Positions 13,320-30,032 of a stretch of DNA of 33,384 nt are shown piece by piece. How positions within the stretch are numbered: position 1 is the first letter of the stretch; each line of letters opens with the position of its first letter. The DNA is from Pseudomonadota bacterium (lineage in GTDB: Bacteria; Pseudomonadota; Alphaproteobacteria; CACIAM-22H2), in contig JACQDQ010000066.1 in assembly GCA_016201015.1 (NCBI GenBank), positions 1 through 33,384 on the forward strand. The letters run 5' to 3'. The notes beneath the pieces are model-generated. The model worked only from the letters and a program-made list of their open reading frames with translations, had not been told where the DNA came from and made no database searches. The translations under genes were made by a program, and so were the position numbers.

Positions 13320-14082
13320 GAACGGCTCCTACACCGCCTCCGAATTGCTGGCGGTGATGAGCTGCCGGCTGCTCAAGGATGGGCAAACGGTGTTCGCCGG
13401 CGTCGGCATTCCGCTGCTGGCGGCGACGCTGGCGCAGCGTCTGCACGCCCCCGGCCTCACCATCCTGTTCGAGGGGGGCGTGCTCGGGCCGTTCGTCGTG
13501 GCGGGGGAACTGCCGCCCTCGACCAACGAGCAGCGCTGTACGCGCCGGGCCAACATGTTGCTCACCATCACCGACGTGCTGCTGCTGCTGCAGCGCGGCT
13601 ATGTCGATGTCGGCTTCATGGGCGGCGCGCAGATCGACTGCCACGGCAACCTCAACAGCTCGTTCATCGGCGATCCGGCCAAGCCCAAGATTCGTCTGCC
13701 GGGAACTGGCGGCGGCAACGACATCGCCAGTCTGGCGCAGATGATCGTCGCCATGAAGCACGAGAAGCGGCGCTTCGTGGAGAAGGTGGACTTCATCACC
13801 AGCCCGGGCTTCCTAGATGGCGATACCAGCCGCCGCGATTCCGGCCTTGTCGCCGGCGGCATGTATCGCGTGGTGACCGACCTCGCCGTGCTGGGGTTCG
13901 ACGACAAGAGCAAGCGGATGAAGGTGTTGGCGTTGCACCCCGGCGTCGTTGGGCGCAGCGTGCAGGACAATACCGGCTTCGACCTCGGCATCGGTAGCGA
14001 TGTGCCGGCCACCGAGCCGCCGAGCGAGCGCGAGCTCAGGGCATTGCGCGAGCTCGATCCCGATCGGCTCTACATCGCCTGA
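13312..14082 (+). CDS. Glutaconate-type CoA-transferase, beta subunit
   Basis: Beta subunit of 256 residues starting at ATG 13312 with GGGAGGAG upstream; the longer ORF in the track runs through the alpha gene and is not real. The segment LTILFEGGVLGP places a Glu at residue 54, equivalent to the catalytic Glu54 that forms the acyl-enzyme and CoA thioester in Acidaminococcus glutaconate CoA-transferase. Downstream, DVGFMGGAQIDCHGNLNSSFIGDPAKPKIRLPGTGGGNDIA is the usual CoA-site region. The retained Glu points to a true transferase rather than an IpdB-type hydrolase. The natural acid substrate is not evident. Confidence 0.9.
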   Translation: MSRNGSYTASELLAVMSCRLLKDGQTVFAGVGIPLLAATLAQRLHAPGLTILFEGGVLGPFVVAGELPPSTNEQRCTRRANMLLTITDVLLLLQRGYVDVGFMGGAQIDCHGNLNSSFIGDPAKPKIRLPGTGGGNDIASLAQMIVAMKHEKRRFVEKVDFITSPGFLDGDTSRRDSGLVAGGMYRVVTDLAVLGFDDKSKRMKVLALHPGVVGRSVQDNTGFDLGIGSDVPATEPPSERELRALRELDPDRLYIA

Positions 14083-14134: not shown

Positions 14135-15088
14135 ATGGCAGCGAAGGCAACGACGTTCGGCATCGCGATGCGCAACTTCACCCGCTATCCGGAGCTGCCG
14201 GATGCCGGGCGGCTCATCGACTACGGCATGCGCATGGAGCAGCTCGGCTTCGAATCGCTGTGGGTGTGGGACCATGTCCTGCTCGGCACCGATCCGCATT
14301 TTCCGATCATCGACTCGCTCTCGCTGCTCACGGCGGTTGCCGCGCGCACGACGAAGATCAAGCTCGGTACGGGCGTGCTGGTGCTGCCGCTGCGCAATCC
14401 GCTCGCCCTTGCCAAGCAGCTTTCGAGCATCGACCTCATCTCGAACGGCCGTCTGATCCTCGGCATGGCGTCCGGCTGGTACAAGCGCGAATTCGACGCG
14501 CTCGGCGTTCCGTTCAATCGCCGCGGCAAGATCATGGACGAGAACATCGAGATCATGACGCGCCTGTGGCGCGAGGATTCCGTCACCGCCGAGATTCCGC
14601 CTTACAACATGCGCCAGGCGGTGATGTTTCCCAAGCCGGCGCAGCGCCCGCGCCCGACCATCCTGATCGGCGGCTATGTCGACGCGGTGCTGAAGCGCGC
14701 CGGGGTCGCCGGCGATGGCTGGTTGACGTATTTCTACACGCCCGAGGGCTTCACGCGGTCGTGGACCAAGGTCCGCGGCTTCGCCGCCGAGGCCGGCAAG
14801 GATCCCGACGCGCTGCTCAACGGCAATCAGCTGCCGATCATGGTCGGCAAGTCGCGGGCCGCCGTCGAGGAGAGGATGAACGAGTGGCTGCGCACCGAGT
14901 GGGATTTCGCCTCATGGAGCGAGTCGACACCGCAAAGCGCGGTGATGGGCACTGTCGATGAGTGCGTGGCGCAGCTCAAGGAGCACATCAACGTCGGCGT
15001 GCAGCGCCTCATCTTCGTTCCGTACCGCTATGAAGCAGAGCAGATCGAGATCATCGCCAAGGAAATCGTGCCCCGGCTCCAGCGCTGA
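14135..15088 (+). CDS. LLM-class oxidoreductase (luciferase-like TIM barrel), probably F420-dependent
   Basis: 317 residues from ATG 14135, preceded by AGAGAGGGAAGG. The fold shows as [28 protein letters not shown], then [54 protein letters not shown], and [24 protein letters not shown]. The SxGRLxLGxGxGWxxxEF pattern is that of the bacterial luciferase/LLM superfamily. Members use either FMNH2 or F420H2. The cofactor is not decided by the motifs alone, but the F420 operon about 4-12 kb away makes F420 the better guess. It lies between the CoA-transferase and the dipeptide ATPases in one plus-strand run, implying a role in the same catabolic route. Confidence 0.85.
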
Positions 15089-15148: not shown

Positions 15149-16138
15149 ATGATAACGCCATCGCGAGCAGAAATCGTGCCGCTGCTTTCGGTTCGCGGAC
15201 TCACCGTCGACCTGATCAAGCGAAGCGGCAAGACACGGCTGATCAGCGGGATCGAATTCGACGTATCGGCCGGCGAAATGCTCGGCATCGTCGGCGAAAG
15301 CGGGAGCGGCAAGAGCCTGACGGCATTGTCGCTCCTGCGGCTGCTCGGACCGGGTCTTCGCATCGCCGCGGGCGAAATCCTCTTCAATGGCCGCGATCTC
15401 GCGACTCTGCCGGAGCGGGACCTGCTTGGCGTCCGCGGCGGCGAGATCGGGATGATCTTCCAAGAGCCGATGACCTCGCTCAATCCGCTGATGCGGATCG
15501 GCGATCAGATCGTCGAATCGCTGGTGGCCCATCGCGGCGCCGATCGGACGACGGCGCTGGCCGAGGCGCGGCGGCTGCTGGATCGCGTGGGCATTGCCGA
15601 TTCGGCCGCGCGGGTTCTTGCCTATCCCCACGAGCTATCGGGCGGCATGCGCCAGCGCACCATGATCGCGATGGCGCTGATTTGTCGCCCCAGGCTGCTG
15701 ATCGCCGACGAGCCGACCACGGCGCTCGACGTGACGATCCAGGCCCAGATCCTGGCGCTGCTCGACGAGTTGCGGCGGGAGCTCGGCATGGCGGTAATCC
15801 TGATTACCCACGATCTCGGCGTGATCGCCGAATATGCCGACCGCGTCGCCGTCATGTATGCCGGCCGCGTGGTCGAGACCGCCGCGGCGCCGGAGCTGTT
15901 CGCGCGACCGCGCCATCCCTATACGCGCGCGCTGATTCGTTCCATGCCCGACATCGGCGCCAGCGTCGAACGGCTGGAGTCCATACCCGGAACCGTGCCG
16001 CATCCGGGCGACATGCCGACAGGCTGCCGGTTCCACCCGCGCTGCACCGATGCCGTTCCCGCCTGCGCGGCGCGCGATCCGATGCCGATCGTGGTTGGGC
16101 CGCAGGCACAAGTCTCCTGCATTCTTTATACGTCGTGA
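15149..16138 (+). CDS. Dipeptide/oligopeptide ABC ATPase, DppD/OppD type
   Basis: 329 residues, ATG 15149 with GGGGAG about nine bases upstream. Walker [10 protein letters not shown]-loop [19 protein letters not shown], signature [15 protein letters not shown], Walker [15 protein letters not shown] and H-loop [26 protein letters not shown]. The C-terminal tail [18 protein letters not shown] is the cysteine motif specific to the peptide/nickel ATPases. Its stop and the next start form TGATG. Partner permeases and binding protein are on the opposite strand, reading toward it. Confidence 0.93.
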
Positions 16139-17130
16139 TGTTACCGCTCGTTTCCGTCAACGGCCTGGTCAAGCACTTTCCGCCGCGGCGCGGATTGTTC
16201 ACCGGCGGTACGGCGCATGCGGTGCGGGCGGTGGACGGCATCAGCATCGACATACTGCCGGGGGAAACGCTGGGCCTTGTCGGCGAGAGCGGCTGCGGCA
16301 AGTCGACGGTTGGCCGGCTGCTGGTGCGACTGCTCGATCCGACGGCGGGGCGCGTGATGTTCGACGGCATCGACCTTGCGGTGCTGCAGGGACGCCGCCT
16401 GCGCACCATGCGAAGGCAATTCCAGATGGTCTTCCAGGATCCGGTCGGCTCATTCAATCCGCGCATGACCGTTCGGGCGATCGTGACCGAGCCGATGCGT
16501 CATCTGGGCGCCCACCGCGCGGAGCGACGACAGCGGGCGGCCGAAGTGCTGGAGCTGGTGGGGCTGAGCGCGGACCACGGCGAGCGCTACCCGCACCAGT
16601 TTTCCGGTGGACAGCGCCAACGCATCGGGATCGCCCGTGCGCTGGCGGTCAATCCGCGATTCTTGGTCTGCGACGAGCCCGTATCGGCGCTGGACGTTTC
16701 GATCCAGGCGCAGATCGTAAACCTGCTCAAAGATCTGCAGAAGAAATTCAAGCTGACCTATCTCTTCGTATCGCACGATCTGCGCGTGGTCAGGCATATC
16801 TCGGATCGGATCGCCGTGATGTATCTCGGCGAAATCGTCGAACTTGCCGACACGCGGGCCCTGTTCGCCGCGCCGCAGCACCCCTACACGCGCGCATTGA
16901 TCGCGGCGGTGCCAAAACTCCGCGCCGATGGCGACAGGCGAGTGCCGCCGATCACGGGGGAAGTGCCAAACCCGGCCGATGCTCCGGCGGGGTGCCGGTT
17001 TCACACCCGCTGCCCGCACGCCACCGACCATTGCCGCGCGGTAGCGCCGGTGTTGCGCAACCTGGGCGGCGGACATCTTGCCGCCTGCCACTTCGCGGTG
17101 GAGTCGCAACGACCCGCCGCGGTCAGTTGA
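16138..17130 (+). CDS. Dipeptide/oligopeptide ABC ATPase, DppF/OppF type
   Basis: 330 residues from the ATG at 16138, one base overlapping the DppD stop. It opens [34 protein letters not shown], as DppF proteins do, with Walker [11 protein letters not shown]-loop [16 protein letters not shown], signature [15 protein letters not shown], Walker [15 protein letters not shown] and tail [14 protein letters not shown]. It pairs with the preceding ATPase on the DppBC permeases. Its final eight bases overlap the end of dppC on the other strand, a tail-to-tail arrangement. Confidence 0.93.
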
Positions 17131-17968
17131 CCGGGCGGGACCGGGGATCGAGACGGTCGCGCAGACCGTTGCCGAACATATTGATGCCCCACACCAGCAG
17201 GATGATCGCCAGGCCGGCAAGATTGGCGATCCACGGCGCTATCAGCAGCCGGTCGCGGCCTTCGGCCAGAATGTTGCCCCAAGTCGGCGCCGGCGGCGGC
17301 ACGCCGAGCCCGAGGAAGCTGAGCGCCGTCTCCTGCAGGATGACGCGCGCCACCTGCAGGGTCGACAGCACGGTCAGCACCGGCACGAGCTGCGGCAGGA
17401 TGTGCAGCCAGATAATCGACAGTCCGGTGGCGCCGAACGAGCGGGCCGCTTCGACATAGGGCCGTTCGCGCAGCGATCGGGTCTGCGAATAGCTGATCCG
17501 GGCATAGACCATCCAGCCCGAGATGCCGAGCACCAGAACCAGGTTGAGTACGCTGCCGCCGACTGCCGCTACCACCAGCACTGCAAGCAGCACCTCGGGC
17601 AAGGCGAGATGCGCGTCGGCGAGGCGCATGACGACCTGTTCCACGCGTCCACTGCGCAATCCGGCGCTCATGCCGAGAAATGAGCCGATGATGCAGGAGA
17701 GGAGCATCGCCGCCAGGCCGACCAGGATCGAGATGCGCGAGCCGAAGATCAGCCGCGACAGAAGATCGCGGCCGTAATTGTCGGTGCCGAGCAGATGCGC
17801 CGTGCTGCCGCCGTCGTCCCATGCCGGCGGCTTCAACCGCAGCATCAGGTTCTGCTGCATCGGATCATACGGGGCGAGGTAGGGCGCGAAGATCGCGACG
17901 GCGACGATCGCCGCGATCACCGCGCCCCCGCACCACAGCTTGAGATCGGCGCCGATACCCGGCCGCAT
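17123..17968 (-). CDS. Dipeptide ABC permease, DppC type
   Basis: 281-residue inner-membrane permease, last gene of the long minus-strand run. An N-terminal helix is followed by [27 protein letters not shown], the DppC hallmark, then a loop [23 protein letters not shown] that docks the ATPase, and [27 protein letters not shown] near the C-terminus. It starts four bases after the dppB stop. It ends overlapping the dppF-like gene of the plus strand by eight bases. Confidence 0.93.
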
Positions 17969-17972
17969 GATG

Positions 17973-18902
17973 TCAATTCATCCTGATACGTGGGTCGATG
18001 ACCGACAGGGCGACGTCGACGGCAAGATTGCACAACATGATCGCCGCGCTCATGACGAAGACGCCCGCCATCACGACCGGAATATCGCGCTGGAAGATGC
18101 TGCTGATGATCAGCCGACCGACGCCCGGCCACGCGAACACGGTCTCGGTGATGATCGAGCCGCCGATCAGCACGCCGAGCTGGAGGCCGAGCAAAGTCAG
18201 GATCGGCGCGATGGCGTTGGGCACCACATGGCGAAACAGCACGAGACGCTCGCGAATGCCCTTCGATCGCGCCGTGGTGACGAACTGCTCGCCCAAGACA
18301 TCCAAGATGCTTGTACGGGTGACGAGGACGAAATTGGGAAACTGGAAGGCGGCCAGAGTCAGCGCCGGGAGAACCAGGTTGGCCCATTCTCCGTAGCCGG
18401 ACGTCGGCAGCCAGCCGAGATAGAGCGCGAAAAGCTGTATCAGGAGAATGCCGAGCCAGAAGCTCGGCATCGATTGGCCGACGATAGCCAGACTCGAGAC
18501 AACGAAGTCGGCGACGCCGTCGCGCCGCGCGGCGCAATAGAGTCCGAGCATGAAGCCAATCCCCACAGCGACGAGCATGGATGCGGCGACCAGTTCGAGT
18601 GTGGGGACGACCCGCTGCAGCACCAGCGGCAGCGCCGGCTCGGAAAACACCATCGACCGGCCGAAATCGCCGTTGATGATATCGACAAGGAACAGCGCGA
18701 ACTGCACCGGCAGCGGCCGGTCCAGGTTCATCGTGCGGCGCAGTTCGGCCGCTTGTTCCGGCGTGCCGTTGATATCGAGGAACAGGCTGACCGGATCGGC
18801 GGTCAGCCGAAGGGTCAGGAAGACGACCAGCGCGAGAAACGCGAAGGTGACGGGCAGCAGCGCGATGCGGCGGACGATGTAGCGCAGCATCGCGCCGGGC
18901 AT
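17973..18902 (-). CDS. Dipeptide ABC permease, DppB type
   Basis: 309 residues if started at ATG 18902 (MPGAMLRYIVRR); ATG 18890 (MLRYIVRR) fits family N-termini equally well. The 631-residue ORF in the track is an upstream open frame through the peptidase gene. It shows the first helix ALLPVTFAFLALVVFLTLRLT, LDRPLPVQFALFLVDIINGDFGRSMVF, the EAA-type loop EQFVTTARSKGIRERLVLFRHVVPNA, and ETVFAWPGVGRLIISSIFQRDIPVV, all typical of DppB. It sits five bases after the peptidase stop, so they are translated together. Confidence 0.92.
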   Translation of the reverse strand: MPGAMLRYIVRRIALLPVTFAFLALVVFLTLRLTADPVSLFLDINGTPEQAAELRRTMNLDRPLPVQFALFLVDIINGDFGRSMVFSEPALPLVLQRVVPTLELVAASMLVAVGIGFMLGLYCAARRDGVADFVVSSLAIVGQSMPSFWLGILLIQLFALYLGWLPTSGYGEWANLVLPALTLAAFQFPNFVLVTRTSILDVLGEQFVTTARSKGIRERLVLFRHVVPNAIAPILTLLGLQLGVLIGGSIITETVFAWPGVGRLIISSIFQRDIPVVMAGVFVMSAAIMLCNLAVDVALSVIDPRIRMN

Positions 18903-18907
18903 CCGGA

Positions 18908-20038
18908 TCAGATGACGAAGAGTTCCTCGTTTTGGAAATACTTGGCGTGCCAGATCGGACCGCTTTCCGTAATTTCGATGATGTCCTCCATGTGATAGCC
19001 GAGCTCGCCGACCCAGCGCGCGAGTGTTTCCACCGCCGTAATCATGCCCGGTTCGTAGACCAGATCCTCGTGCGGTCCGACGATCGGCCGTTCGTGCACA
19101 TTGAGGCCGATCGAGTGCCCATTGTGCGAGTAGGCGAAGGCGAGGCCGGCCTTCTCCTGCATCCGCTTCGCCGTTTCGAACAATTCGCGACCGGTCTTGC
19201 CGGGACGGCACATCTCGATGATGGCGTGATGAACGTCGCGGAGCTTCTTCCAGTATGAAAGGTCGTCGGGGGTCGGCTTGCCCACCTTCGCGGTCCGGCC
19301 GACATTGGAATAGTACTCCTTGAAGAAGCCGCCCGAATCCGCCTTGACGATGTCGCCCTTCTGCACGCGATACTCGGATGGCGACATGTGCGGGAAGCCG
19401 GTATTGGCGCCGGCGTTGAGATGGTTGAACGCGACCATGTCGGCGCCCTGGATCAGGATGTTCTCGGCCAGGCGGTTGGCGAGCGTCTTCTCGGTCTCGC
19501 CGATGCACACCGACGAGTAGGTGGCAAGAAACGCCCGTTCCGTGCCGTGGAAGGCGCCGATGATGATTTCGCGCTCGCGCGGCGTCTTCATCATGCGGAC
19601 GCGGGCAAGCAGCGGCTCGGCCGGGCTGATCTTCAGCTTGGGCAGTTGCCGGGTAAGATCGTTGTAGTACTTGGCGGCAAGGTATTCCGTCTCCAACGCG
19701 ACGTGGCCATTCTCCAGCTTGAGCTCGCGCAGAATGCCGGCCAGCGCCGTGATCGGGTCGAGCGTGAATTCCTGGTAAGTGCGGACGTCCTGGACCCACG
19801 TGTTCTTCTTCACATAGGCGGCCTCGATCAGACAGACGAGAAAGATCGGATCGCGCCCTTTGGGCCAAACGATGAATGCCAGCCGGTCGCGGATGCTCAC
19901 CTGGGTCGAGATGCTTACGTCGCCGGCGTAGCGCACGTTCTCCGGCGACACGGCGATCACGGCGTCGAAGGCGCTCTTGGCGATGGCGCGCTCAAGGCCC
20001 TTCATGTCGCCGATGGCATCTTCCTGGCGCTTGGTCAT
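18908..20038 (-). CDS. M24-family (Xaa-Pro aminopeptidase/creatinase-like) protein
   Basis: 376 residues from ATG 20038, preceded by GAGGAGAGCAGAGA; the track's 19-residue extension is not needed. The N-terminal creatinase-like domain spans residues 1-140 and the pita-bread domain 145-365. The usual metal ligands Asp-Asp-His-Glu-Glu read as Asp234 (IVKADSGG), Asn245 (YYSNVGRT), His308 (NGHSIGL), Glu337 (TAVETLA) and Glu351 (MEDIIEIT). The second aspartate, normally in an SDxxRT motif, is Asn here. This could weaken the second metal site, as in creatinase, which works without metals. So it may be a C-N hydrolase rather than a standard peptidase. The gene is embedded between the binding protein and permeases of the dipeptide importer, pointing to action on the imported molecule. 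Confidence 0.88.
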   Translation of the reverse strand: MTKRQEDAIGDMKGLERAIAKSAFDAVIAVSPENVRYAGDVSISTQVSIRDRLAFIVWPKGRDPIFLVCLIEAAYVKKNTWVQDVRTYQEFTLDPITALAGILRELKLENGHVALETEYLAAKYYNDLTRQLPKLKISPAEPLLARVRMMKTPREREIIIGAFHGTERAFLATYSSVCIGETEKTLANRLAENILIQGADMVAFNHLNAGANTGFPHMSPSEYRVQKGDIVKADSGGFFKEYYSNVGRTAKVGKPTPDDLSYWKKLRDVHHAIIEMCRPGKTGRELFETAKRMQEKAGLAFAYSHNGHSIGLNVHERPIVGPHEDLVYEPGMITAVETLARWVGELGYHMEDIIEITESGPIWHAKYFQNEELFVI

Positions 20039-20069
20039 TCTCTGCTCTCCTCGGATTGCGGATGGGGGG

Positions 20070-21593
20070 TCAGCGGAGCTCGGCCTTGTCGACATGGATA
20101 AGGCGGTCCTGCGGGGCCACCCAGCCGGTCAGTCGCTTCGACTTGCCGTAGACCGAGGGTAGGCCGAACAAGAAAACGGACGGATTTTCTGCGTGCATGA
20201 TCTCCATCATCCGTTGATAGCCCTTCAGGCGCTCGTCGCGGTTCACGGTCGAGCGCGCAGCGAGAAACAGCTTCTCGTACTCGTCGTTGACCCAGAAATT
20301 TCGTTGTGTCGCCTCGGTGAACCAGACGGCGTTGAAATCGGCATCGCCGAGGCTGTACCAGCCGACCAGGTGCATTGGGCCGAGATCGCGCGCGGTCGCC
20401 ATCTTGGAATACACGCCACCTTCGACGACGTTGATCGAGGTCTTGATCCCGACCGCTTCCAGCATCCCTGCGATCGCGTTGCAAATCTCGACGTCGGAGA
20501 CATAGCGGCCGGACCGGGTCGTGATCGTCGTCGTCAGACCGTTTGGATAGCCGGCTTCGGCGATCAGTCTCTTGGCCCGTCCCGGATCGAAGGGTCGCGC
20601 CTTGATGTTCGGGTTGTGGCCGAAGGTCGCCTTGGTGACCAGTTGGCCGTCGAGCACGCTGCCGACGCCGCCGAGGATTTGCCGGTTGATGAGATCCTTG
20701 TCGATGGCGAGATCGACCGCGAGACGCAGTCGCGGATCGTTGAATGGCGGCTTTCTGGTTTCAAATGTGAGGACCAGGCTGCCGCTGGTCTCGACTGGAC
20801 TTACCTCGGCATTGCTACTCTTCCGCACCCGGTCGATCAGATCGGTGGGGATTTCCTCGATGATCTGCACTTCGCCGGCGAGGAGCGCCGAGATGCGGGT
20901 CGCGCTTTCCGGAATCTGACGAAAAATCAGGCGGTCGATCTTCGGCTTGCCGCCCCAGTACTCGGGATTGAGTCTCAGCTCGTAGCGGTCCGCCGGCACC
21001 CAACGCAGGAAGACGAACGGGCCGGTGCCGATGGGATGCTTTGTCATCGCATCGTGGCCGGATTGCACGTGGTAGTGCTTCGGCTCGATGACGATGTTGG
21101 TCAGGCCGACCAGAAGCGTCGGGAAGGGCTGTTTGGTGACGAATTCGACCGTTAACGGGTCGATGACATCGACCTTGGCGATCAGATTGATGCGGCTTGC
21201 CGTGCCGTAGACCGTCTTGGGATCGAGGACGTAGTCGATGGTGTATTTCACGTCATCGGCGGTGAGCGGATGGCCGTCATGGAACTTGACGCCGGGACGA
21301 AGATGAAACCGCCATGTGGTGGCGTTGACCGCCTCCCACTTCGTGGCCAGCGCCGGCATCACCTGGCCTTGATTGTTGAGCGTGACGAGAGGATCGTTGG
21401 TCTGGATCGAAAGTGTCAGAGCGGTGAAGCTGCTCCACCCGGTCTTGAGCGAATCCGGAAAACCCGCGACGCCGACGGTCAGCGTCTTCTGCGCATGCGC
21501 CGGGCTGGCAGCAATCGCGAAGAAGACCAGCGCCCCGACGACATAACCCAGCCAACCCCGCAGCCCGACTCCCTGATTCGGCCGAATGCGCAT
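20070..21593 (-). CDS. Dipeptide-type periplasmic binding protein, SBP family 5
   Basis: 507 residues, typical of DppA/OppA. A Sec signal peptide (YVVGALVFFAIAASPAHAQ) is followed by KTLTVGVAGFPDSLKTGW. Family-5 marks are WRFHLRPGVKFHDGHPLTADDVKYTIDYVLDP, PIGTGPFVFLRWVPADRYELRLNPEYWGGKPKIDRLIFR and RLAVDLAIDKDLINRQILGG. The start at 21593 has GGAG eight bases ahead. It is the receptor for the DppBC-like permeases downstream and the DppDF-like ATPases on the opposite strand. It begins 60 bases after the cofGH stop, close enough for one transcript with the F420 genes. Confidence 0.93.
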   Translation of the reverse strand: MRIRPNQGVGLRGWLGYVVGALVFFAIAASPAHAQKTLTVGVAGFPDSLKTGWSSFTALTLSIQTNDPLVTLNNQGQVMPALATKWEAVNATTWRFHLRPGVKFHDGHPLTADDVKYTIDYVLDPKTVYGTASRINLIAKVDVIDPLTVEFVTKQPFPTLLVGLTNIVIEPKHYHVQSGHDAMTKHPIGTGPFVFLRWVPADRYELRLNPEYWGGKPKIDRLIFRQIPESATRISALLAGEVQIIEEIPTDLIDRVRKSSNAEVSPVETSGSLVLTFETRKPPFNDPRLRLAVDLAIDKDLINRQILGGVGSVLDGQLVTKATFGHNPNIKARPFDPGRAKRLIAEAGYPNGLTTTITTRSGRYVSDVEICNAIAGMLEAVGIKTSINVVEGGVYSKMATARDLGPMHLVGWYSLGDADFNAVWFTEATQRNFWVNDEYEKLFLAARSTVNRDERLKGYQRMMEIMHAENPSVFLFGLPSVYGKSKRLTGWVAPQDRLIHVDKAELR

Positions 21594-21653
21594 GCCGGTC
21601 TCCGTTCACCCGTGACAAATGTCCGATCATTTCCGCATAGTCGTGAACAAGCG

Positions 21654-24131
21654 TCAATGCCGCGCCGAGTCCGACCCTATGTGCGCGCATTCGCCGTTCG
21701 CTGCGTCCCGGATGTAGCGCCGTGCCAAAGCATTGATCGGCGGCGAGAGAGCGGCGGCGTCGTAGGATGCTCGCCGTTGCGCTTCGATCGGCTCGCCGTA
21801 GAGCGTCGTGCGCTGCCGCGGCGTACGGCCGATCGCGCGGATCAGTGCGTCCATCTCCGCCGGCATCATCTCCTGGCCATGGCTGGCGCCCGCGGCGCGC
21901 GTGATCGTCTCGTTCATCAGAGTGCCGCCGAGGTCGTTGGCACCGGCCTGGAGGCAAATCTTGACGCCCAGCGGCCCCATTTTCACCCATGACGTCTGGA
22001 TGTTGGTGATGTGCGGATGCAGGGCGAGCCGAGCTACGGCGTGCATCAGCACCGCCTCGCGAAACGTGGGTCCGCGGCGCGCACGGCCCTTGAGGTAGAT
22101 CGGTGCCTCCATATGCACGAAGGGGAGAGGCACGAGCTCCGTGAAGCCATGCGTGCGTTCCTGGAGCGTGCGCAGGCGCAACAGGTGGCGTGCCCAATGC
22201 ACGGCATGATCGACGTGTCCGAACATGATCGTCGTCGTGCTGCGCAAGCCGAGGCCGTGCGCCATCTCCATCACGTCGAGCCATTGCTGCGTCGTGATCT
22301 TGTCCGGACAGATGACGGCCCGCACCTCGTCATCGAGGATTTCGGCGGCGGTGCCCGGCAGCGAGCCGAGCCCGGCGGCCTTGAGCTCGGCGATGTATCC
22401 TGGCAGCGACAGGCCGAGCGTCTTCGCGCCTTGCCACACTTCGAGCGGCGTGAAGGCATGGACATGCATATCCGGTGTCGCCGTTTTCACGGCGCGACAG
22501 ATGTCGAGATAGGTGGCGCCTGTGTACTCCGGGTGAATGCCGCCCTGCATGCACACCTCGGTCGCGCCGCGCGCCCACGCCTCGCGCGCGCGCCGGGCGA
22601 TTTCGTGCTGGCCGAGGTCGTAGGGGCGGCCGCGCAGGTTCTCGGAGAGCTTGCCCTTGGAGAAGGCGCAGAACTGGCAGCGGAAGTAGCAGACATTGGT
22701 ATAGTTGATGTTGCGGTTGACGACATAGGTGACGACGTCGCCGTTGACCGTCCGGCGCAGACCGTCGGCGGCCGCGCAGACGGCGGCAAAGTCGTCGCCG
22801 CGCGCGGCAAACAACGCGACGATGTCGTCTTCGGTCAGCGTCGTGCCGTCCAGCGCCTTGCTCAGCGCGCGTGCGACGCCGGGCCGGGCGGCCATCGAAC
22901 CGGATTGCGCCGTGATCGCCATTGCCTCGCCGGGCAAAGATGTCTCGGCACCCGGCGACCAGTCATCCACTCTGGCGAATCCCTCGGCGTCGGTGGCGCG
23001 CAGCACGGCGCCGCGCAATCCGGCATCGAGCCAGCGTGCCGGTTCGCGCGCGTAGGCGGGGTAGATCGCCAGCCGTTCGACCAGCGTCTTGCCCGCGGCC
23101 TCGGTCGTGCGGGCGAGAGCATCGAGATGCGGCCAGGGCGACTCCGGGTTGACGTGATCCGGCGTCACCGGCGAGACGCCGCCCCAGTCGTTGATGCCGG
23201 CCGCGACCAGGCGCGGCAGCGCGTCAGGGTTCAGATTTGGCGGCGCCTGAATGTTCATCGCCGGTCCGAAAATCAGGCGTGCGACGGCGATCGTCCACAG
23301 ATGCTCGTCGAGCGGCGCGTCGGGCGCAGCTGCCATGCGCGTGTCCGGCTTGGCGCGGAAATTCTGGACGATGATCTCCTGCAGATGGCCATGGCGATCG
23401 TGGAGATCGCGCAGTACCAGCAGCGATTCGACGCGCTCGCGCCGCGTTTCGCCGATGCCGATCAGGAGACCGCTGGTCAACGGGATCGCGGCCTCGCCGG
23501 CCAGTCGAATGGTCTCGAGCCGCACCGCCGGCCGCTTGTCGGGCGACCCGAAATGCGGCCCACCGCGTCCGCATAGCCGCTCCGACGCGCTCTCCAGCAT
23601 GATGCCCTGCGAGACGGAGACGGCGCGCAGCGTCGCAAGATCCGTGGCCGTCATGATCCCGGGATTGAGATGCGGCAGCAGGCCGGTTTCCTCGAGCACG
23701 AGGCGAGCCATCGCGGCGAGGTACGATAGGGTCGTCGCGTGCCCAAGGGCGGCCAGTTCCTACTTGGCGATCGCGTAGCGCAGCTCGGGCTTGTCGCCGA
23801 GCGTAAACAGTGCCTCCTTGCAACCGGCGGCGGCGCCGGCGCGGGCGATCGCCAGAACCTGCTCCGGAGCGAGGAAGGCACGCTCGCCACGCCGCGGCGG
23901 ATGCGCAAACGTGCAGTAGTGGCAGACATCGCGGCAGAGCTGCGTCAGCGGAATGAATACTTTGCGCGAGTATGAAATGATCTGGCCATGGCCGCGGTCG
24001 CGCAGCTCCGCGGCGGCTCGCATCAGACCGTCGATATCCGTCGCGTCGGCGAGCGCCTGGATATGCGCACGCGCCGGTCTTTGGCCGTCCGTGATCGCGC
24101 GCAAGATCGCTCGCGTCTCTGCGGCGGTCAT
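21654..24131 (-). pseudogene. fbiC: Fused FO synthase (CofG-CofH, FbiC-like) interrupted by an in-frame TAG at codon 124
   Basis: FO synthase joins 5-amino-6-ribitylamino-uracil and tyrosine to make the deazaflavin core of F420, using two radical-SAM halves. Read through, the frame gives 825 residues, like actinobacterial FbiC. The CofG half carries CRDVCHYC (Cys66, 70, 73); the CofH half carries CYFRCQFC (Cys481, 485, 488 of the full frame). The frame is broken at TAG 23762-23760 between KPELRYAIAK and ELAALGHATTLSYLAAMARLVLEETGLLPHLNPG. Homology continues without shift, so one codon (GAG or CAG most simply) has become TAG. The fragments are 123 residues, and an open frame with its first ATG at 23711. 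The CofG fragment lacks most of its barrel. The start overlaps the cofC stop by four bases. Either the pathway is blocked at its first dedicated step or this is a base-call error. Confidence 0.9.
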
Positions 24132-24850
24132 CGCGAGCCTCGTGCGCGGGCGGTCGCTGCGCCGGGACGGAGGTCGCGATCGGGCGGCGCCCCGCGTAGC
24201 CGTGCTTCGATGCGACTCTCGATCAGCAGACGCTGGGTTTGCGTCGTCGCGCGCTGGGCGAGCAGGGCGGCGATGTCGCTCGGCCGGTCGATGTCGAGGC
24301 CGAGGCCGGGCAGATCGACGACCGCCGGCACGATGCCGCCGGCGCGTGCGGCGGCAGCGTGACGCCGGAAGCTGTCGTCGCCGAACTGGAAAGCGATAGC
24401 GTCGGGCGGCGAGCAGGCAATCGCGCAGGTGCCACCGTCGGTGTAGGCGGGAACGAGACTTACCGCCGGCGCCGAACCGTGCCGCGCGAGCAACGCGTCG
24501 ATCTCGGCGGCTGTCACCAGCGGCACGTCGGCGACGACAACCAGCACGCCGCTGGCGCCTTCCGCCGCCAGCGCCGCGGCCGCTGCCGTCACCGCGCGCG
24601 TGAGACCTGGCCTGACCGGTTCGGACAGCACGCGGGCGCGGGCCGTCTCGGCGAGAGATGCCGCTTCGGCGTCAGCGGTCACCACTACGACGCCACTGAG
24701 GCCGCGTGACGACCGCAGCGCGTCGAGAACGTCGGCGAGCATCGCACGCGCCAGCGCGTAGCGCTGGTCCGGCGTCAGAATGGTGGCAAGCCGGCGCTTG
24801 GCGCCGCGCAGCCTGCCCACCGGAACGATGGCCCATATCGGCGACATCAT
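24128..24850 (-). CDS. cofC: CofC/FbiD: phosphoenolpyruvate or phospholactate guanylyltransferase of F420 synthesis
   Basis: Couples GTP to 2-phospholactate, phosphoenolpyruvate or a related acid to give the activated side-chain donor used by CofD. I start it at the MMSPIWAIVPV methionine (24850), giving 240 residues and a 4-base gap to cofD; ATG 24871 gives 247 residues but overlaps cofD by 17 bases. The sequence opens WAIVPVGRLRGAKRRLA, has the acidic VVADVPLV, then DGGTCAI (the family usually has DGGTNAL), FGDDSFRRHAAAA and LGLDIDRPSDIA. Its end overlaps cofGH (ATGA). Which acid it uses cannot be told by eye. Confidence 0.88.
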   Translation of the reverse strand: MMSPIWAIVPVGRLRGAKRRLATILTPDQRYALARAMLADVLDALRSSRGLSGVVVVTADAEAASLAETARARVLSEPVRPGLTRAVTAAAAALAAEGASGVLVVVADVPLVTAAEIDALLARHGSAPAVSLVPAYTDGGTCAIACSPPDAIAFQFGDDSFRRHAAAARAGGIVPAVVDLPGLGLDIDRPSDIAALLAQRATTQTQRLLIESRIEARLRGAPPDRDLRPGAATARARGSR

Positions 24851-24854
24851 GGCG

Positions 24855-25838
24855 TCAGGCGGCTTGATCATGCCGCCGCAGCCGGTCGGCGAAGCGTAGA
24901 ACCTCGCGGGCCAACACCTCGCGATCGGCCAGGCTCGTCATGACCGTCGGCGCAGCTTGGCATGGCACAGGCGGGCGGCCGATCATGTCGGCGTCGATGC
25001 GATCGAGGACAAAGCCGTCGAGCAGGGCGCGGTAATGTTCGGCCACCCAGGCCGGCGTCGGCGTCACGCCGAGCTCGGCCATCATCTTCGCCGCCGGGCC
25101 TTTGATCGCCCTGCCGCCGACGATCGGCGACACGGCGATGATCGGCGCCGCGCTTGCGTCGAGTGCTTCGAAGATGCCGGGAACCGCCAGCATCGGGTCG
25201 ACGCTGACATATGGGTTGGACGGGCAGATGACGATGGCCCGTAGCCGCGGATCGGCGATTGCGTCGTGGAGGACCGGATTGGGGCGAGCGGTCGCCGCGC
25301 CGTCGAACTCGAAGCCGGTCACGGCCGGGGCGCAGGCGAGCTTGACGAAATAGTGCTGGAAGGGGAGCGGCCCCTGAGCGCTATGCACGACGGTGCGCAC
25401 TGGATCGTCGCTCATCGGCAGGAGTCGGGCGCGGATGCCGAGGCGCCGGCGAAATTCGTCGGTGATCGCGGTGAGCGAATCGCCGGCCGCGAGGCGGCGG
25501 GTCCGCTCCACATGCGTCGCGAGGTCGCGGTCGCCGAGGCGGAACCAGGTTTCGCCGCCGAGCGCCGCGAGCGCCTGCATGAACGACCAGGTCTCGTCCG
25601 TGCGGCCCCAGCCGGTCTCGGGATTGGCGATGCCGGCAAGGGTGTACATCACGGTGTCGAGGTCGGGGGAAACGTGCAGGCCGAGAGGTTCGAAGTCGTC
25701 GCCGGTGTTGACGATCACGGTGAGTCGATCGGGAGCCAGCACACGGTAGAGGCCGAGCGCGAGCTTGGCGCCGCCGACGCCGCCACACAGCGCAACGACA
25801 TTGCCGGTTTCCTCGCCGCTTGGCTGGTGGCTGGTCAT
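24855..25838 (-). CDS. cofD: CofD: 2-phospho-L-lactate (or PEP) transferase of F420 synthesis
   Basis: Transfers the activated phospho-acid onto FO to give F420-0 or dehydro-F420-0. 327 residues from ATG 25838 ([30 protein letters not shown]), the standard length; the longer N-terminus in the track overlaps cofE and is dropped. The [10 protein letters not shown] loop binds phosphate, [26 protein letters not shown] binds FO, and [20 protein letters not shown] and [18 protein letters not shown] complete the family signature. It lies between cofE (17-base gap) and cofC. Confidence 0.94.
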
Positions 25839-25855
25839 GGTGCTTCTTACGCCGC

Positions 25856-26626
25856 TCAGCGGAACAAGTCTTGATTCTTCGGCCGCAGGAGCGCGGCGGC
25901 CGGCAGCGGCGGGGCTGTCCACTCGAGGCCGCGCACCAGCACCGCTGGCCGGCCCTCGTCGGCCTGCCCCATGACGAGCGACGCGGCGGCGGCGATCTCG
26001 TCGGCGAAGCCGACCTGCGTCACCTGCAGCCGGCGGCCGAAGAGGTCGGGTCGCCCGCGCAGATCGGCGAGCGCCGGCAGTCCCGCCGCACCGAGCGCGA
26101 CGCCGACCGTGCCGTTGCGCCAGGCACGGCCGAAGCTATCGTTGATGATGACGGCGATCGTCATGCCGAATCGCTGTTCCAGCCGCGCCTTGAGCCGCGC
26201 GCAGCTCGCGTCGGGATCGGCCGGGAGGAGCAGCACGCGCTCCGCCGGTCCATCCGGTTCGACGTTCGATTGGTCGACGCCGGCATTGGCCATGACGAAG
26301 CCGAGCCGGTGCGCGACGATCAGCACGTCCTTGGCGTGGCGCACCACCTCGGCCGATTCCGACAGGATGAGCTCGACCAAACGCGGGTCCTTGGACGTCG
26401 CGCGTGCAATCTCTTCCGCCCGCGGCTTGGGTGTGACGCCGCGGAGATCGACGTAGCGGTTCTCGGCCTTCGACACGATCTTCTGGGCGACGACCAGGAC
26501 GTCCATGTCGCGAGGCGTCAGGCTGGAGGCAGCGAGGGCGTCGCCCAGGATCTGCGCCAGGTCGTCGCCGGGGCGAATCAGCGGAATGTCGGGAATCGGC
26601 GCCAGTCTCAAACTGTCCGCGGCCAT
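25856..26626 (-). CDS. cofE: CofE: F420-0:gamma-glutamyl ligase
   Basis: Adds glutamates to F420-0 using GTP. 256 residues, the single-domain form; the extra C-terminal FMN domain of actinobacterial FbiB is absent. It opens LRLAPIPDIPLIRPGDDLAQIL and has DVLVVAQKIVSKAENR, LILSESAEVVR, GVDQSNVEP and DSFGRAWRNGTVGVALGAAGLPAL, the family core. It begins 15 bases after the reductase stop. So the fused FO synthase is of the actinobacterial arrangement while the ligase is of the simple arrangement. Confidence 0.94.
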   Translation of the reverse strand: MAADSLRLAPIPDIPLIRPGDDLAQILGDALAASSLTPRDMDVLVVAQKIVSKAENRYVDLRGVTPKPRAEEIARATSKDPRLVELILSESAEVVRHAKDVLIVAHRLGFVMANAGVDQSNVEPDGPAERVLLLPADPDASCARLKARLEQRFGMTIAVIINDSFGRAWRNGTVGVALGAAGLPALADLRGRPDLFGRRLQVTQVGFADEIAAAASLVMGQADEGRPAVLVRGLEWTAPPLPAAALLRPKNQDLFR

Positions 26627-26641
26627 CTACCGGCACCGAGT

Positions 26642-27322
26642 CTAAGTAACCGTCGTGCCGCCGAGTTCTCCGGTCACGCGGAGGCCGGCGCCATCGACCT
26701 TGTAGATACGGTTGATGGTGATGAGGATCGAGGTGAGCGCCTCCGCCGCCGCCGAGTTGGCGAGCGGGCCGCCATGCAGGCCGCGCAGACCAAGCGCGCG
26801 GGCGAGGCCGATCACTGTCTCGCGCGCTTCCTTCTTGTCGCCGAACACGAGCACGTCGCAATCGATTGCTTCGTCGCGCTGCAGCTTGTGCGCCGCGACG
26901 TTGTGGAACGCGGAGACGACAATGGCGCCGTCGCCGAGCAGACGCTGCGCAATCATCGCCGCCGATCCTTCGGGCGGCAGCTGCACGGTGCCGACCTTGG
27001 GCGGTACGAGCGGCACGGTCGTGTCGATGACGATCTTGCCGGCTGCGCCATCGCGGATGTCGGACAGCGTCTGGCGCTGGCTGGCGAAGGGCACGGCGAC
27101 GACGATGATGCCGGCCGCCGCCGCCGCCGCCGCGTTGACAAGGCCGCGCGCCGGCACTGTTCCGTTGGCGACGGCGAGGCCGGCGGCCGCGGCAGCGGCC
27201 TTTTCGGCCGAACGCGAGCCGACGATCACCGGATATCCGGCCCTCGCCCAGCGTCGCGCCAAGCCGGAGCCCAGAGCGCCGGTGCCGCCGATGATCGCCA
27301 GGGTGGGAAGCGAAGGACTCAT
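26642..27322 (-). CDS. npdG: F420-dependent NADP oxidoreductase (FNO/NpdG type)
   Basis: Transfers hydride between NADPH and F420, here most likely making F420H2. 226 residues. The Rossmann start LAIIGGTGALGSGLARRWARAGYPVIVGSR fits NADP preference (Ser-Arg after the second strand). It continues VVAVPFASQRQTL, IVIDTTVPLVPP and VSAFHNVAAHKLQ, with C-terminal HGGPLANSAAAEALTSILITINRIYKV, all family marks. It stops with TAG. Two alanine runs fall at residues 43-48 and 64-70. It sits between pxpA copy 1 and cofE in the operon, giving the cell a way to reduce the cofactor for the LLM enzyme. Confidence 0.93.
   Translation of the reverse strand: MSPSLPTLAIIGGTGALGSGLARRWARAGYPVIVGSRSAEKAAAAAAGLAVANGTVPARGLVNAAAAAAAGIIVVAVPFASQRQTLSDIRDGAAGKIVIDTTVPLVPPKVGTVQLPPEGSAAMIAQRLLGDGAIVVSAFHNVAAHKLQRDEAIDCDVLVFGDKKEARETVIGLARALGLRGLHGGPLANSAAAEALTSILITINRIYKVDGAGLRVTGELGGTTVT
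27114..27131. repeat. (GCC)6 trinucleotide tract inside npdG
   Basis: Six consecutive GCC units followed by GCG encode, on minus, most of an Ala7 run between the second and third Rossmann strands. Such tracts can slip by whole codons without breaking the frame. Confidence 0.7.
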
Positions 27323-27362
27323 CGGGAGAAACGCGATTGCGGCCGTGCCAACCGCCGCCGCT

Positions 27363-28072
27363 CTAGGCGATGCCCATTTCGGTCAGCGGCACGACCTGAA
27401 CGCCGGCCTTCTCGAGTGCGGCGCGCGCCGCCTTGGCGACGGTGACCGCCGTCGGCTCATCGCCGTGGACGCAGAGCGACTCCACCTGCCGCTTGATCCG
27501 CTTGCCGCTCATCGTGACGATTTCGCCGTCCAATACCATGCGCACGACACGCTCGCTCGCCACTGCCGGATCGTGGATTACGGTTCCTGGGATCTTGCGC
27601 GAGGCAAGATTGCCATCGTCGTCGTAGAGGCGGTCGACGAAGCCCTCGCGCGCCAGCGGCAGCCCGAGCTTCTCGGCGGCGCGCTCCATCTCGGATCCGG
27701 CGAGGGCAACGAAGATGAGCTTCGGGTCAACCGCCTTCATCGCGCGGCCGATAGCCAGGGCGAGGTCGACATTCTCCGCGGCCATGTTGTTGAGCGAGCA
27801 TAGGCGACGGCATATTCGAGATCGCGCGGCGACATATCGATGCGCCGCCGGCCGAAGCCCCACAAATCATTGAAGCCGGGATGGGCGCCGATGCTGACGC
27901 CTTCCTGCTTTGCGCGCAGGATGACGTGGTGCATGACATTGGGATCGCCGGCATGGAAGCCGCAGGCGATATTGGCCGAGCGGATGATCTTCAGCAGCGC
28001 GTCGTCGTCGCCCATTTTGAAGGCGCCGAAGCTCTCGCCCATGTCGGCGTTGAGGTTGATTTTGGTCGCCAT
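27363..28072 (-). pseudogene. pxpA: PxpA (LamB/YcsF family) copy 1, broken by an internal deletion and frameshift
   Basis: PxpA is a subunit of ATP-dependent 5-oxoprolinase and related amidolyases. The first part (28072 to about 27800) reads ATKINLNADMGESFGAFKMGDDDALLKIIRSANIACGFHAGD and on to DMSPRDLEYAVAY. The last part, in another frame, reads SLNNMAAENVDLALAIGRAMKAVDP to the TAG at 27363. Compared with the intact copy at 31665-32441, the 23-codon block QIGALQAMARYAGLKPTHAKAHG is missing except for two bases, an apparent 67-base loss at about 27798. It removes the conserved Lys-x-His-Gly region and shifts the frame, so copy 1 should be inactive. GGGGAG precedes the start. It is first in the long F420/dipeptide run and divergent from pxpB, the position expected for the original pxpA. 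Confidence 0.9.
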
Positions 28073-28133: not shown

Positions 28134-28169
28134 ACGCTACTTGTCTCAGTAGCTGTTATCAAGTATAGA
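28134..28169. promoter_or_regulatory. Divergent promoter pair with shared inverted repeat TACTTG-N16-CAAGTA
   Basis: Within the gap 28073-28254, unusually AT-rich for this genome, plus has TTGTCT (28141) 17 bases from TATAGA (28164), directed at pxpB. Minus has TTGATA (28162 to 28157) 17 bases from TAGCGT (28139 to 28134), directed at pxpA and the F420 run. An exact inverted repeat, TACTTG at 28138 and CAAGTA at 28160, overlaps -35 and -10 of the plus promoter and parts of the minus one. This fits a repressor site covering both promoters. The GntR protein encoded 2 kb downstream is the natural candidate. Confidence 0.5.
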
Positions 28170-28254: not shown

Positions 28255-28992
28255 GTGACTAGCCCAGCGCCGAAGGCGGGCTTCCTGCCGTGCGGCGACA
28301 CCGCCCTGGTGGTCGAATTCGGCGACCGCGTCGATCGCGCGGTGAGCGATCGCGTCTTGCGCCTCCAGGCGCGCGTGGCGAAGGCCAAGCTGCCCGGCGT
28401 GGTCGAGATGGTGCCGACCTGCCGCTCGCTCATGGTGCACTACGATCCGCTGCGCACCGGGGCAGCGAAGCTTGAGCACGAAATCGTGCCGCTGCTTGCG
28501 GACGGCGAGGCGGTGGCCAGCATCGGCAAGTCGTGGCGCGTCCCGGTGTGCTATGAAGGCGATCTCGCGCCGGACCTCGATGCCGTCGCCAAGCGCGTCG
28601 GTCGGACGACGGACGAAGTGATCCGTCTCCACTCCTCCGTCACCTACCACGTCTACATGATCGGCTTTCTGCCCGGATTTCCCTACATGGGCGACCTCGT
28701 GCCCGAACTTGCGCTGCCACGGCTCGAAAATCCGCGGCTGCGGGTGCCGCCGGGCTCCGTCGCGATGGCCATGCGGATGACCGGCGCCTATCCGGTGGCC
28801 AGTCCGGGCGGTTGGTGGCTGATCGGTACGACGCCGATCCGCCTCTTCGAGGCCGGTCGTGCGCGTCCGTCGCTATTTGTTCCGGGAGATCGCGCAAAAT
28901 TCGAGCCGGTGGCCGCGCGCGAATTTGCAGCGATCAAGCGGGCGAGCGACGCCGGCGACTATGAAGTGCGGTCGGAAGAACTGACGTCGTGA
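28255..28992 (+). CDS. pxpB: PxpB: 5-oxoprolinase/allophanate-hydrolase subunit 1-like
   Basis: 245 residues from a GTG start at 28255 with only a weak binding site. PCGDTALVVEFGDRVDRAV at the N-terminus, FLPGFPYMGDLVPELALPRLENPRLRVPPGSVAMA and SPGGWWLIGTTPIRLF are the family core. With PxpA and PxpC it forms an ATP-dependent enzyme that opens 5-oxoproline (pyroglutamate) to glutamate or acts on a similar lactam or urea-type amide. Its end overlaps pxpC by four bases (GTGA). A 16-codon open frame (28212-28262) precedes and overlaps the start; I give it no weight. Confidence 0.92.
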   Translation: MTSPAPKAGFLPCGDTALVVEFGDRVDRAVSDRVLRLQARVAKAKLPGVVEMVPTCRSLMVHYDPLRTGAAKLEHEIVPLLADGEAVASIGKSWRVPVCYEGDLAPDLDAVAKRVGRTTDEVIRLHSSVTYHVYMIGFLPGFPYMGDLVPELALPRLENPRLRVPPGSVAMAMRMTGAYPVASPGGWWLIGTTPIRLFEAGRARPSLFVPGDRAKFEPVAAREFAAIKRASDAGDYEVRSEELTS

Positions 28993-30032
28993 AGCCACAT
29001 CTCAAAGTCATGCAGCCGGGCCTGCATACGACAATCCAGGACGTTGGCCGCTTCGGCTTTCAGTCGGTCGGCGTGCCGGTCTCGGGGGCGCTCGAACTGG
29101 AGTGGCTGCGACTCGCCAACGCCCTGGTTGGCAATCCGCAAGAGACTGCGGGGTTCGAGATTCTTCTCGCCGGACCCAATTTCGAGGTCTGCGCCGATTC
29201 GGTTGTCGTCGCTGTCGCCGGCAGTGGTGCCGAGCTTGACATCCGGGGCGATCAGCCGCGGCGTGTTCCCGCGTGGCAGAGCGTCCGGCTGCGCCGCGGC
29301 CAGATCATTGGCGTGCGGGTGCCGCAGTCCGCTGCCTGCTGCTATCTGGCGGTGTCGGGGGGCTTCGCGATTGTGCCGTGTCTTGGCAGCCTGTCGACCT
29401 ATGTCCGCGGTGGGCTCGGTGGCTTCCAGGGGCGCGAGTTGCGGGCGGGCGATGAGGTTCCGTTGGCATTTGAGCGTGCGCCCGATCGGCCTGCGGCGCG
29501 GGCCGACGGCGCTGCGCTCGACCTGCCGCCGGGTCCTATTCGCGTGATCCTCGGTCCGCAGCGCGACTGTTTCACGGCGGCAGCGATCGATGCCTTTCTA
29601 GGCTCTGAGTACATCATCTCCGACAACGCCGATCGCATGGGTATGCGACTTGTCGGACCAACGCTGGCGCATCGCGACGGCTATGACATCGTCTCCGACG
29701 GCATCGCCACCGGTGCGATCCAAGTCCCGGGCAGCCGTCAACCCATCGTCCTTCTGGCCGACCATCAGACGACCGGCGGTTACCCCAAGGTGGCGACGGT
29801 CATCTCGGCCGACCTGCCGGCCGTCGGACGGCGTCGTCCTGGCGACCGCCTGCGCTTCACCGCCGTCGACGTCGCTACGGCCGAGCGGCTGCGGCGTGAG
29901 CGGGAGACATTGTTGCGCAAGGTGATCGAGCGGATCGAAGTCGTGCGTGACGACGGCGGCTTGGACTTGGACCGGCTCTACAAGGAAAATATCATCAGCG
30001 GAGTCGTCAGTGGATTCGACGGCACACCATAA
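28989..30032 (+). CDS. pxpC: PxpC: biotin-dependent-carboxyltransferase/allophanate-hydrolase subunit 2-like
   Basis: 347 residues from GTG 28989, coupled to pxpB. The N-terminus KVMQPGLHTTIQDVGRFGFQSVGVPVSGALE, then GVRVPQSAACCYLAVSGGF and RMGMRLVGPTLAH, and IQVPGSRQPIVLLADHQTTGGYPKVATV are diagnostic. It is the partner subunit of PxpB. Substrate of the complex could be 5-oxoproline itself or a larger cyclic amide delivered by the importer. Confidence 0.92.
   Translation: MKPHLKVMQPGLHTTIQDVGRFGFQSVGVPVSGALELEWLRLANALVGNPQETAGFEILLAGPNFEVCADSVVVAVAGSGAELDIRGDQPRRVPAWQSVRLRRGQIIGVRVPQSAACCYLAVSGGFAIVPCLGSLSTYVRGGLGGFQGRELRAGDEVPLAFERAPDRPAARADGAALDLPPGPIRVILGPQRDCFTAAAIDAFLGSEYIISDNADRMGMRLVGPTLAHRDGYDIVSDGIATGAIQVPGSRQPIVLLADHQTTGGYPKVATVISADLPAVGRRRPGDRLRFTAVDVATAERLRRERETLLRKVIERIEVVRDDGGLDLDRLYKENIISGVVSGFDGTP

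Follow-up and report, generated by a model that had tools for sequence, protein, structure and literature searches.

Gene content of the locus

The locus described here is the complete 33,384-base contig JACQDQ010000066.1 (hereinafter the window) from a Pseudomonadota bacterium of the alphaproteobacterial CACIAM-22H2 lineage (GenBank assembly GCA_016201015.1), whose genome of 5.3 Mb is assembled in 551 contigs at an estimated completeness of 96%. The window contains all the coenzyme F420 biosynthesis families, namely CofC, CofD, CofE and CofG plus CofH (FbiC), within a run of ten minus-strand genes, pxpA1, npdG, cofE, cofD, cofC, fbiC, a gene for a family 5 solute-binding protein (SBP5), a gene for an M24 protein, dppB and dppC, in which every gap is 60 bases or less and the pairs cofD/cofC and cofC/fbiC overlap. 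This run is flanked on the plus strand by plp, coaTA, coaTB, llm, dppD, dppF, pxpB, pxpC, gntR and a racemase gene; further to the left lie xdhA and livKHMGF, and to the right a second pxpA and an acyl-CoA dehydrogenase gene. The initial annotation had presented the minus-strand genes as one tight unit: the genes, their order and their packing are as it described them, while fbiC is split by a TAG codon, pxpA1 is a pseudogene and the run is not a single conserved unit. The luciferase-like monooxygenase-fold (LLM) oxidoreductase and the DppD and DppF ATPases, which it had placed on the nearby plus strand, are found there at 14135-17130. The 5-oxoprolinase set PxpABC, with all three subunits identified by Pfam, is present through intact copies of pxpA2, pxpB and pxpC, and the Dpp importer is complete by parts (SBP5, two permeases and two ATPases). 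The features are as follows:

3056..6474, minus strand: livF, livG, livM and livH, an ATP-binding cassette (ABC) importer of the branched-chain amino acid (LIV) type (Pfam for livF and livH; conserved neighbours)
6697..7863, minus strand: livK, binding protein, with an in-frame TAG at 7438-7440
7964..10306, minus strand: xdhA, molybdenum-hydroxylase large subunit
10651..10664: predicted degenerate operator TTCTAACCTTAGCA, 2 mismatches, upstream of plp
10827..12332, plus strand: plp, fold-type II pyridoxal phosphate (PLP) enzyme with a cysteine-synthase-like core (conserved operon member)
12366..13319, plus strand: coaTA, glutaconate-CoA-transferase-like subunit A (present at 80 loci)
13312..14082, plus strand: coaTB, glutaconate-CoA-transferase-like subunit B
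14135..15088, plus strand: llm, TIGR03619 F420-dependent LLM oxidoreductase (NCBIfam, AlphaFold model, genome co-occurrence)
15149..17130, plus strand: dppD and dppF, ATPases of the inserted cassette (convergent with dppC, as at locus L255)
17123..18902, minus strand: dppC (17123-17968) and dppB (17973-18902), permeases of the inserted cassette
18908..20038, minus strand: M24 pita-bread hydrolase, with a metal-ligand Asp replaced by Asn (YYSNVGRT)
20070..21593, minus strand: SBP family 5 binding protein of the cassette
21654..24131, minus strand: fbiC (cofGH), with a premature TAG at 23760-23762
24128..24871, minus strand: cofC
24855..25838, minus strand: cofD, sole copy in the genome
25856..26626, minus strand: cofE, F420 gamma-glutamyl ligase
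26642..27322, minus strand: npdG, NADPH:F420 oxidoreductase (TIGR01915 above cut-off)
27363..28072, minus strand: pxpA copy 1, a pseudogene with a 67-bp frameshifting deletion
28138..28151: predicted degenerate operator TACTTGTCTCAGTA, 3 mismatches, in the pxpA1/pxpB gap
28255..30032, plus strand: pxpB and pxpC, 5-oxoprolinase subunits
30131..30879, plus strand: gntR/UTRA regulator, frameshifted past the DNA-binding domain
30902..31675, plus strand: Asp/Glu/hydantoin racemase family protein
31665..32441, minus strand: pxpA copy 2, intact
32480..33376, minus strand: acyl-CoA dehydrogenase, truncated by the contig end

A core operon is linked to F420 synthesis across families and phyla

We used a coaTA alignment, and no F420 gene as a seed, to search 84,980 species genomes and thereby recovered 80 loci with named organisms. 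At the set identity thresholds, llm occurs in 77 of these (at least 60% identity), plp in 55, gntR and fbiC in 36 each and pxpA in 35, and plp-coaTA-coaTB-llm is a conserved operon. F420 genes lie within 10 kb at 38 of the 80 loci, and 31 of those 38 also carry PxpABC genes. By comparison, pxp genes were found at a single one (L011) of 58 FbiC loci of the class Alphaproteobacteria (Fisher p=2e-17, computed on related genomes). That locus, one of the first five FbiC neighborhoods examined, has llm, coaTB, coaTA, plp and pxpBC adjoining the F420 genes, and most of the class FbiC loci have npdG-cofEDC-fbiC or near variants thereof with neither pxp genes nor the llm operon. In three Hyphomicrobiales loci (L102, L119, L123) the entire set pxpA-npdG-cofEDC-fbiC-plp-coaTAB-llm-livKHMGF is codirectional, and four others (L112, L113, L151, L098) reproduce the gene order of the window without the Dpp/M24 block. 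The linkage recurs across families and phyla, and npdG-cofE-cofD-cofC-fbiC and pxpA belong to an old unit. The genes livKHMGF adjoin the core operon at several of the 80 loci, at 57-77% identity to those of the window, and the usual importer of the pathway is predicted to be of this LIV type. The acyl-CoA dehydrogenase of the window has no match at 50% identity or above in the 80 loci. Two lineages show further genes beside the core. Nitrospinota and similar metagenome-assembled genome (MAG) loci (L095, L106, L109, L111, L114, L116, L118, L120, L161) combine coaTAB, a deacylase gene, llm and a LIV importer, usually with two cystathionine-beta-synthase-like genes, and have split CofG/CofH elsewhere in the genome; at L101 (15115-17237) and L107 (3744-5806) an extra flavoprotein and a small ferredoxin-like partner stand beside the molybdenum hydroxylase.

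The association extends beyond physical linkage. F420 synthesis genes were detected in 74 of the 77 llm-bearing genomes, either as FbiC (65) or as a split CofG scoring above cut-off (9, Nitrospinota), and the three that lack them are draft MAGs. The genomes of the two loci without llm contain none of FbiC, CofG and CofE. In an even draw of 385 genomes of the class, FbiC is present in 60, and all five genomes with coaTA fall among these (p=8e-5); within the host's family, the 22 other genomes sampled all lack FbiC.

The cluster resides on Sinorhizobium symbiotic plasmids

Conjugative pSymA-type plasmids of some Sinorhizobium meliloti and S. fredii strains carry the cluster (L259-L262) with livHMGF, npdG, cofEDC, cofGH, coaTAB, llm, livK and gntR, to which are added genes for an ArgE/DapE deacylase, PntAB, a complete molybdenum hydroxylase and a diaminopropionate-ammonia-lyase-like (DpaL-like) protein. 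Relative to the window, the deacylase, PntAB and the DpaL-like lyase thus stand in place of PxpABC and of the plp product. On these plasmids a pyrC-type dihydroorotase gene precedes the cluster, and the PntAB transhydrogenase genes lie inside it. The cluster is on pSymA of S. meliloti KH35c and KH46, and coaTA and llm were located on pSymA of strain GR4. A genome-wide association study (GWAS) of nodule competitiveness lists, for GR4, KH35c and KH46, FbiA, FbiC, LivF, GctAB, an F420 LLM protein, a PLP ammonia-lyase and GntR regulators (PMC8407117). Gene types of this list recur in the cluster on the pSymA plasmids of these strains; in the sections of that study available to us the discussion concerns only an fbi operon, and not one catabolic cluster (PMC8407117).

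A common palindrome precedes both operons

The palindrome TACTAANNTTAGTA precedes both the plp operon and the pxp/F420 operon. Allowing at most one mismatch, we counted 27 sites upstream of core genes, in regions amounting to 5.2% of the bases, versus three elsewhere; the motif reaches 24 loci, compared with two or fewer for each of 59 permuted half-sites, and 14 of the sites remain outside Ancylobacter. When four Sinorhizobium plasmids were scored once the motif had been fixed, each yielded a single site at up to two mismatches within its 37 kb, upstream of npdG. Palindromes allowing three mismatches are not enriched overall (134 found versus about 150 in shuffles); only the strict TACTAANNTTAGTA sites and their positions are informative. 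The window has just two hits at three or fewer mismatches, both degenerate, which fall at the two expected positions, the plp upstream region and the pxpA1/pxpB gap. We infer that the linked GntR/UTRA protein binds TACTAANNTTAGTA-type sites.

These data bear on whether the F420 genes and plp/coaTAB/llm might be neighbors without a functional tie, co-traveling on mobile DNA, with the LLM enzyme using flavin mononucleotide (FMN) instead. The patchy distribution of the cluster, the absence of FbiC from the rest of the sampled family and the conjugative Sinorhizobium plasmids would all fit such an account. It is nonetheless very improbable: llm and F420 genes occur together even in genomes where they are not linked, and also in Nitrospinota, whose F420 synthesis is of the other, split-CofG type; the two loci without llm are also without F420 genes; the palindrome is common to both operons; and the LLM protein of the window scores 201.6 bits against TIGR03619, above the cut-off of 166.9. 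We thus favor a common regulon of F420 synthesis and the core operon, in which the LLM enzyme is inferred to use F420 as its cofactor.

The Dpp-type importer and M24 genes form an inserted cassette

At 45% identity or above, the M24 protein and SBP5 are found at none of the 80 core loci and none of the 58 class FbiC loci, and M24 orthologues occur in only 6 of the 385 class genomes. The block sbp5-m24-dppB-dppC is kept in two genomes without FbiC (G066, G078) and in one with it (G245), and is free-standing at three loci (L248-L250); at L255 dppF and dppD follow convergently, matching the arrangement of the window. Where llm and fbiC are convergent neighbors (27 loci) the gap between them ranges from -23 to 1,839 bp, as against 6,565 bp in the window. 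Because the block is absent from the 80 loci, stands alone elsewhere and coincides with an enlarged llm-fbiC gap, SBP5-M24-dppB-dppC, together with dppD and dppF, forms a separate cassette inserted between llm and fbiC. Scores of the SBP5 against the DppA, NikA and GsiB models are all far below cut-off. M24 metallopeptidases bind their metals through the ligand set D, D, H, E, E; in alignments with 4ege and 1pv9 the second ligand Asp of the window protein is Asn, leaving the five-ligand set incomplete, and because of this replacement the M24 protein may not be a classical peptidase. At L255 (14002-19661), in a genome without FbiC, the M24/Dpp cassette adjoins a molybdenum hydroxylase, a thiamine pyrophosphate (TPP) enzyme-like gene and a weakly CapA-like hydantoinase/oxoprolinase. 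A TauABC-type (NMT1-like) importer occupies the left end of the window (83-2811), and a TauA homologue (52%) also flanks the cassette at L255.

The initial annotation had instead envisaged a single working unit: DppABCDF would bring in a peptide-like or lactam compound, which the M24 protein and PxpABC would open and F420 would reduce. As fbiC and sbp5 are separated by just 60 bases, read-through from the F420 operon is plausible, and the molybdenum hydroxylase and hydantoinase/oxoprolinase near the L255 cassette make a lactam-like cargo conceivable. Yet with M24 and SBP5 missing, at 45% identity or above, from all 80 core and 58 class FbiC loci, the cassette present in genomes devoid of FbiC, and joined in the window to broken copies of fbiC and pxpA1, we regard this proposal as improbable. 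Of the partners whose conservation beside the cof genes it had suggested checking, pxpABC recurs and M24 and SBP5 do not.

The window copy carries lesions

Four genes of the window are interrupted. An in-frame TAG at codon 124 of fbiC splits CofG, leaving the F420 operon without a full set of open frames; the corresponding position is a sense codon, mostly for Glu, in 36 aligned orthologues, and no second FbiC was found in the host genome. Relative to the intact pxpA2, pxpA1 lacks 67 bp and is frameshifted. The gntR/UTRA gene is frameshifted near 30420, after the DNA-binding domain, such that the regulator is not intact; an intact orthologue is encoded at L121 (18505-19257). Lastly, the TAG of livK corresponds to Tyr or Trp in 14 orthologues, the remainder of the binding protein being well conserved. 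In addition, the FAD and 2Fe-2S subunits of the molybdenum hydroxylase, which adjoin xdhA in Azospirillum and Sinorhizobium (L144, L259), are absent beside xdhA in the window, so xdhA may be an orphan large subunit; the livK-xdhA interval (7864-7963) is without the genes that stand there in L144 and L150. Given the lesions in fbiC, pxpA1, gntR and livK, the window copy is probably non-functional or in decay.

Consensus errors in the draft assembly would provide another explanation, the island then being intact and working in the living organism. The genome is in 551 contigs, three of the four lesions fit single-base changes and the interrupted genes are otherwise well conserved. Moreover, a homology scan of the host genome, which gave a small number of usable cases, located in-frame TAG codons in an LtrA-like gene (L180:7448) and near the C-terminus of HtpG (L242:364), for which reason assembly error keeps some probability; an oxidoreductase gene of the genome has one in-frame TGA (L237:5133). 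Conversely, a 67-bp deletion is atypical of base-call error, the 70-odd ABC domains listed for the genome have no interior stops, and the small hydroxylase subunits are also missing beside xdhA. Error as the cause of the lesions is therefore possible but on the unlikely side, and on its sequence the window copy is best described as either decaying or partly misassembled. Reading of TAG as an amino acid, which would render fbiC and livK whole, is scarcely credible, even with in-frame TAG codons in fbiC, livK, the LtrA-like gene and htpG of one genome: a tRNA with a CUA anticodon was not found among the 37 tRNA loci of the genome, the conserved genes coaTA, npdG and pxpA2 end with TAG where a stop is expected, the replaced residues differ (Glu in fbiC; Tyr or Trp in livK), and the ABC domains again lack interior stops. 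We accordingly favor decay, and consider the window quite likely to be a composite, partly decayed catabolic island with, as its core, one copy of a widespread inducible F420 regulon.

A candidate reductive pathway

Both CoaTA and CoaTB align over nearly their full length with glutaconate CoA-transferase (1POI), and the Glu aligned with the Glu of GctB is kept in CoaTB. We also considered an IpdAB-type ring hydrolase and rejected it: among solved structures GctAB is the nearer relative, and CoaTB retains its Glu. The relationship to 1POI is nonetheless distant: the orthologues of subunit A cluster separately, with 61-79% identity to the window protein among bacterial loci. Foldseek searches with the plp product retrieved the cysteine-synthase fold only. 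Across the 80 loci PxpABC (36 loci) and the deacylase (21 loci) share a single locus (p=7e-6), and this mutual exclusion suggests that the two may be interchangeable amide hydrolases.

Together with the predicted operators, these enzyme classes lead to the following model. A UTRA-type GntR repressor would sit on operators of the TACTAANNTTAGTA form before plp-coaTA-coaTB-llm and between pxpA and pxpB; pxpA-npdG-cofE-cofD-cofC-fbiC would be read from the latter gap. Arrival of the substrate, normally via the LIV-type ABC importer, would open both operons; F420 would be made by FbiC and CofCDE and reduced by NpdG (with PntAB in Sinorhizobium). The substrate would be oxidized by the molybdenum hydroxylase, hydrogenated by the F420H2-dependent LLM enzyme and hydrolyzed at its amide bond by PxpABC, or by the ArgE/DapE-type deacylase in other lineages, after which the fold-II PLP lyase would eliminate the amino group and the GctAB-like CoA-transferase would feed the resulting acid to CoA metabolism. 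We favor as substrate an N-heterocycle or cyclic amide that is degraded reductively; nicotinate-like and pyrimidine-like compounds were among the candidates considered. The gene content, its conservation and co-occurrence, the common palindrome, the insertion and the lesions are observations from sequence analysis, whereas the order of steps and the substrate class derive from the enzyme classes, and in this chemistry our confidence is low.

Discussion

In npd nitroaromatic degradation NpdG supplies F420H2, and npdG is present in the window. The npd clusters for picrate and dinitrophenol in Rhodococcus and Nocardioides share with the present system the tie of F420 to a catabolic cluster, NpdG and predicted LLM-fold hydride transfer (picrate reduction is reviewed in PMC8498797). 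What differs is the set of partners: a CoA-transferase resembling GctAB, a PLP enzyme of fold type II, a molybdenum hydroxylase, a LIV importer and either PxpABC or the deacylase. The regulon is found in Proteobacteria and Nitrospinota, with its F420 synthesis genes under a shared palindrome. In reductive pyrimidine catabolism a ring is reduced, a cyclic amide is hydrolyzed and nitrogen is removed; the proposed pathway would follow the same logic with an F420-type LLM reductase, PxpABC or the deacylase for the amide step, and a subsequent CoA-transferase. Similarly, PxpABC comprises the same three subunits as the known 5-oxoprolinase, but is here linked with F420 and LLM genes under the shared palindrome, and its substrate in the regulon may be a lactam other than 5-oxoproline. 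We found no description of such a cluster in the open-licence literature, apart from the GWAS list that names its genes (PMC8407117).

The initial annotation suggested a single inducible purpose for F420 synthesis. This idea is largely borne out by the recurrent linkage, the llm-F420 co-occurrence and the shared palindrome, with partners that differ from those it had named: PxpABC, the LLM oxidoreductase and CoA chemistry are tied to F420 by conserved linkage over families and phyla, and the dipeptide importer and M24 protein are not supported as part of the unit. Our overall proposal, which we put forward tentatively, is that F420 in some Alphaproteobacteria and other bacteria would be an inducible catabolic cofactor whose synthesis is controlled by operators. 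It would serve one reductive pathway, as yet undescribed, that acts on an N-heterocycle or cyclic amide of plant or soil origin; PxpABC and the deacylase would be interchangeable in opening the amide, and the pathway would aid Sinorhizobium in nodule competition. Several points weigh against the reading of the window as a decayed copy of an F420 regulon. Many of the loci are related (15 are from Ancylobacter) and many genomes are MAGs, so the counts are not independent; TACTAANNTTAGTA was derived from the same loci on which it was first scored, and the window's own operator copies are weak, with two and three mismatches. The AlphaFold model of the LLM protein matches FMN and F420 enzymes alike, and the substrate class is guessed from the kinds of enzyme encoded. 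Assembly error could account for the lesions, in view of the in-frame TAG codons in two other genes of the genome, though none occurs in the 70-odd ABC domains. Finally, just 5 of the 60 F420-making class genomes have the operon, which would consequently be one use of F420 and not all. The prediction that F420 synthesis and the pathway constitute one regulon is much better supported than the chemistry.

The gene set is widespread and undescribed, and it appears to switch on F420 synthesis together with the breakdown of a nitrogen compound. According to a 2021 review, the question of what F420 does in Proteobacteria is unanswered (PMC8498797). If the F420 operon is inducible and tied to a substrate, this could explain low F420 levels in uninduced cells, and the question becomes testable in the culturable Ancylobacter, Rhodoplanes, Azospirillum canadense and Sinorhizobium meliloti. 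The cluster also offers a concrete candidate behind the published association with nodule competitiveness and, more generally, an explanation, open to testing, for F420 production in some Proteobacteria, certain legume-nodule bacteria among them.

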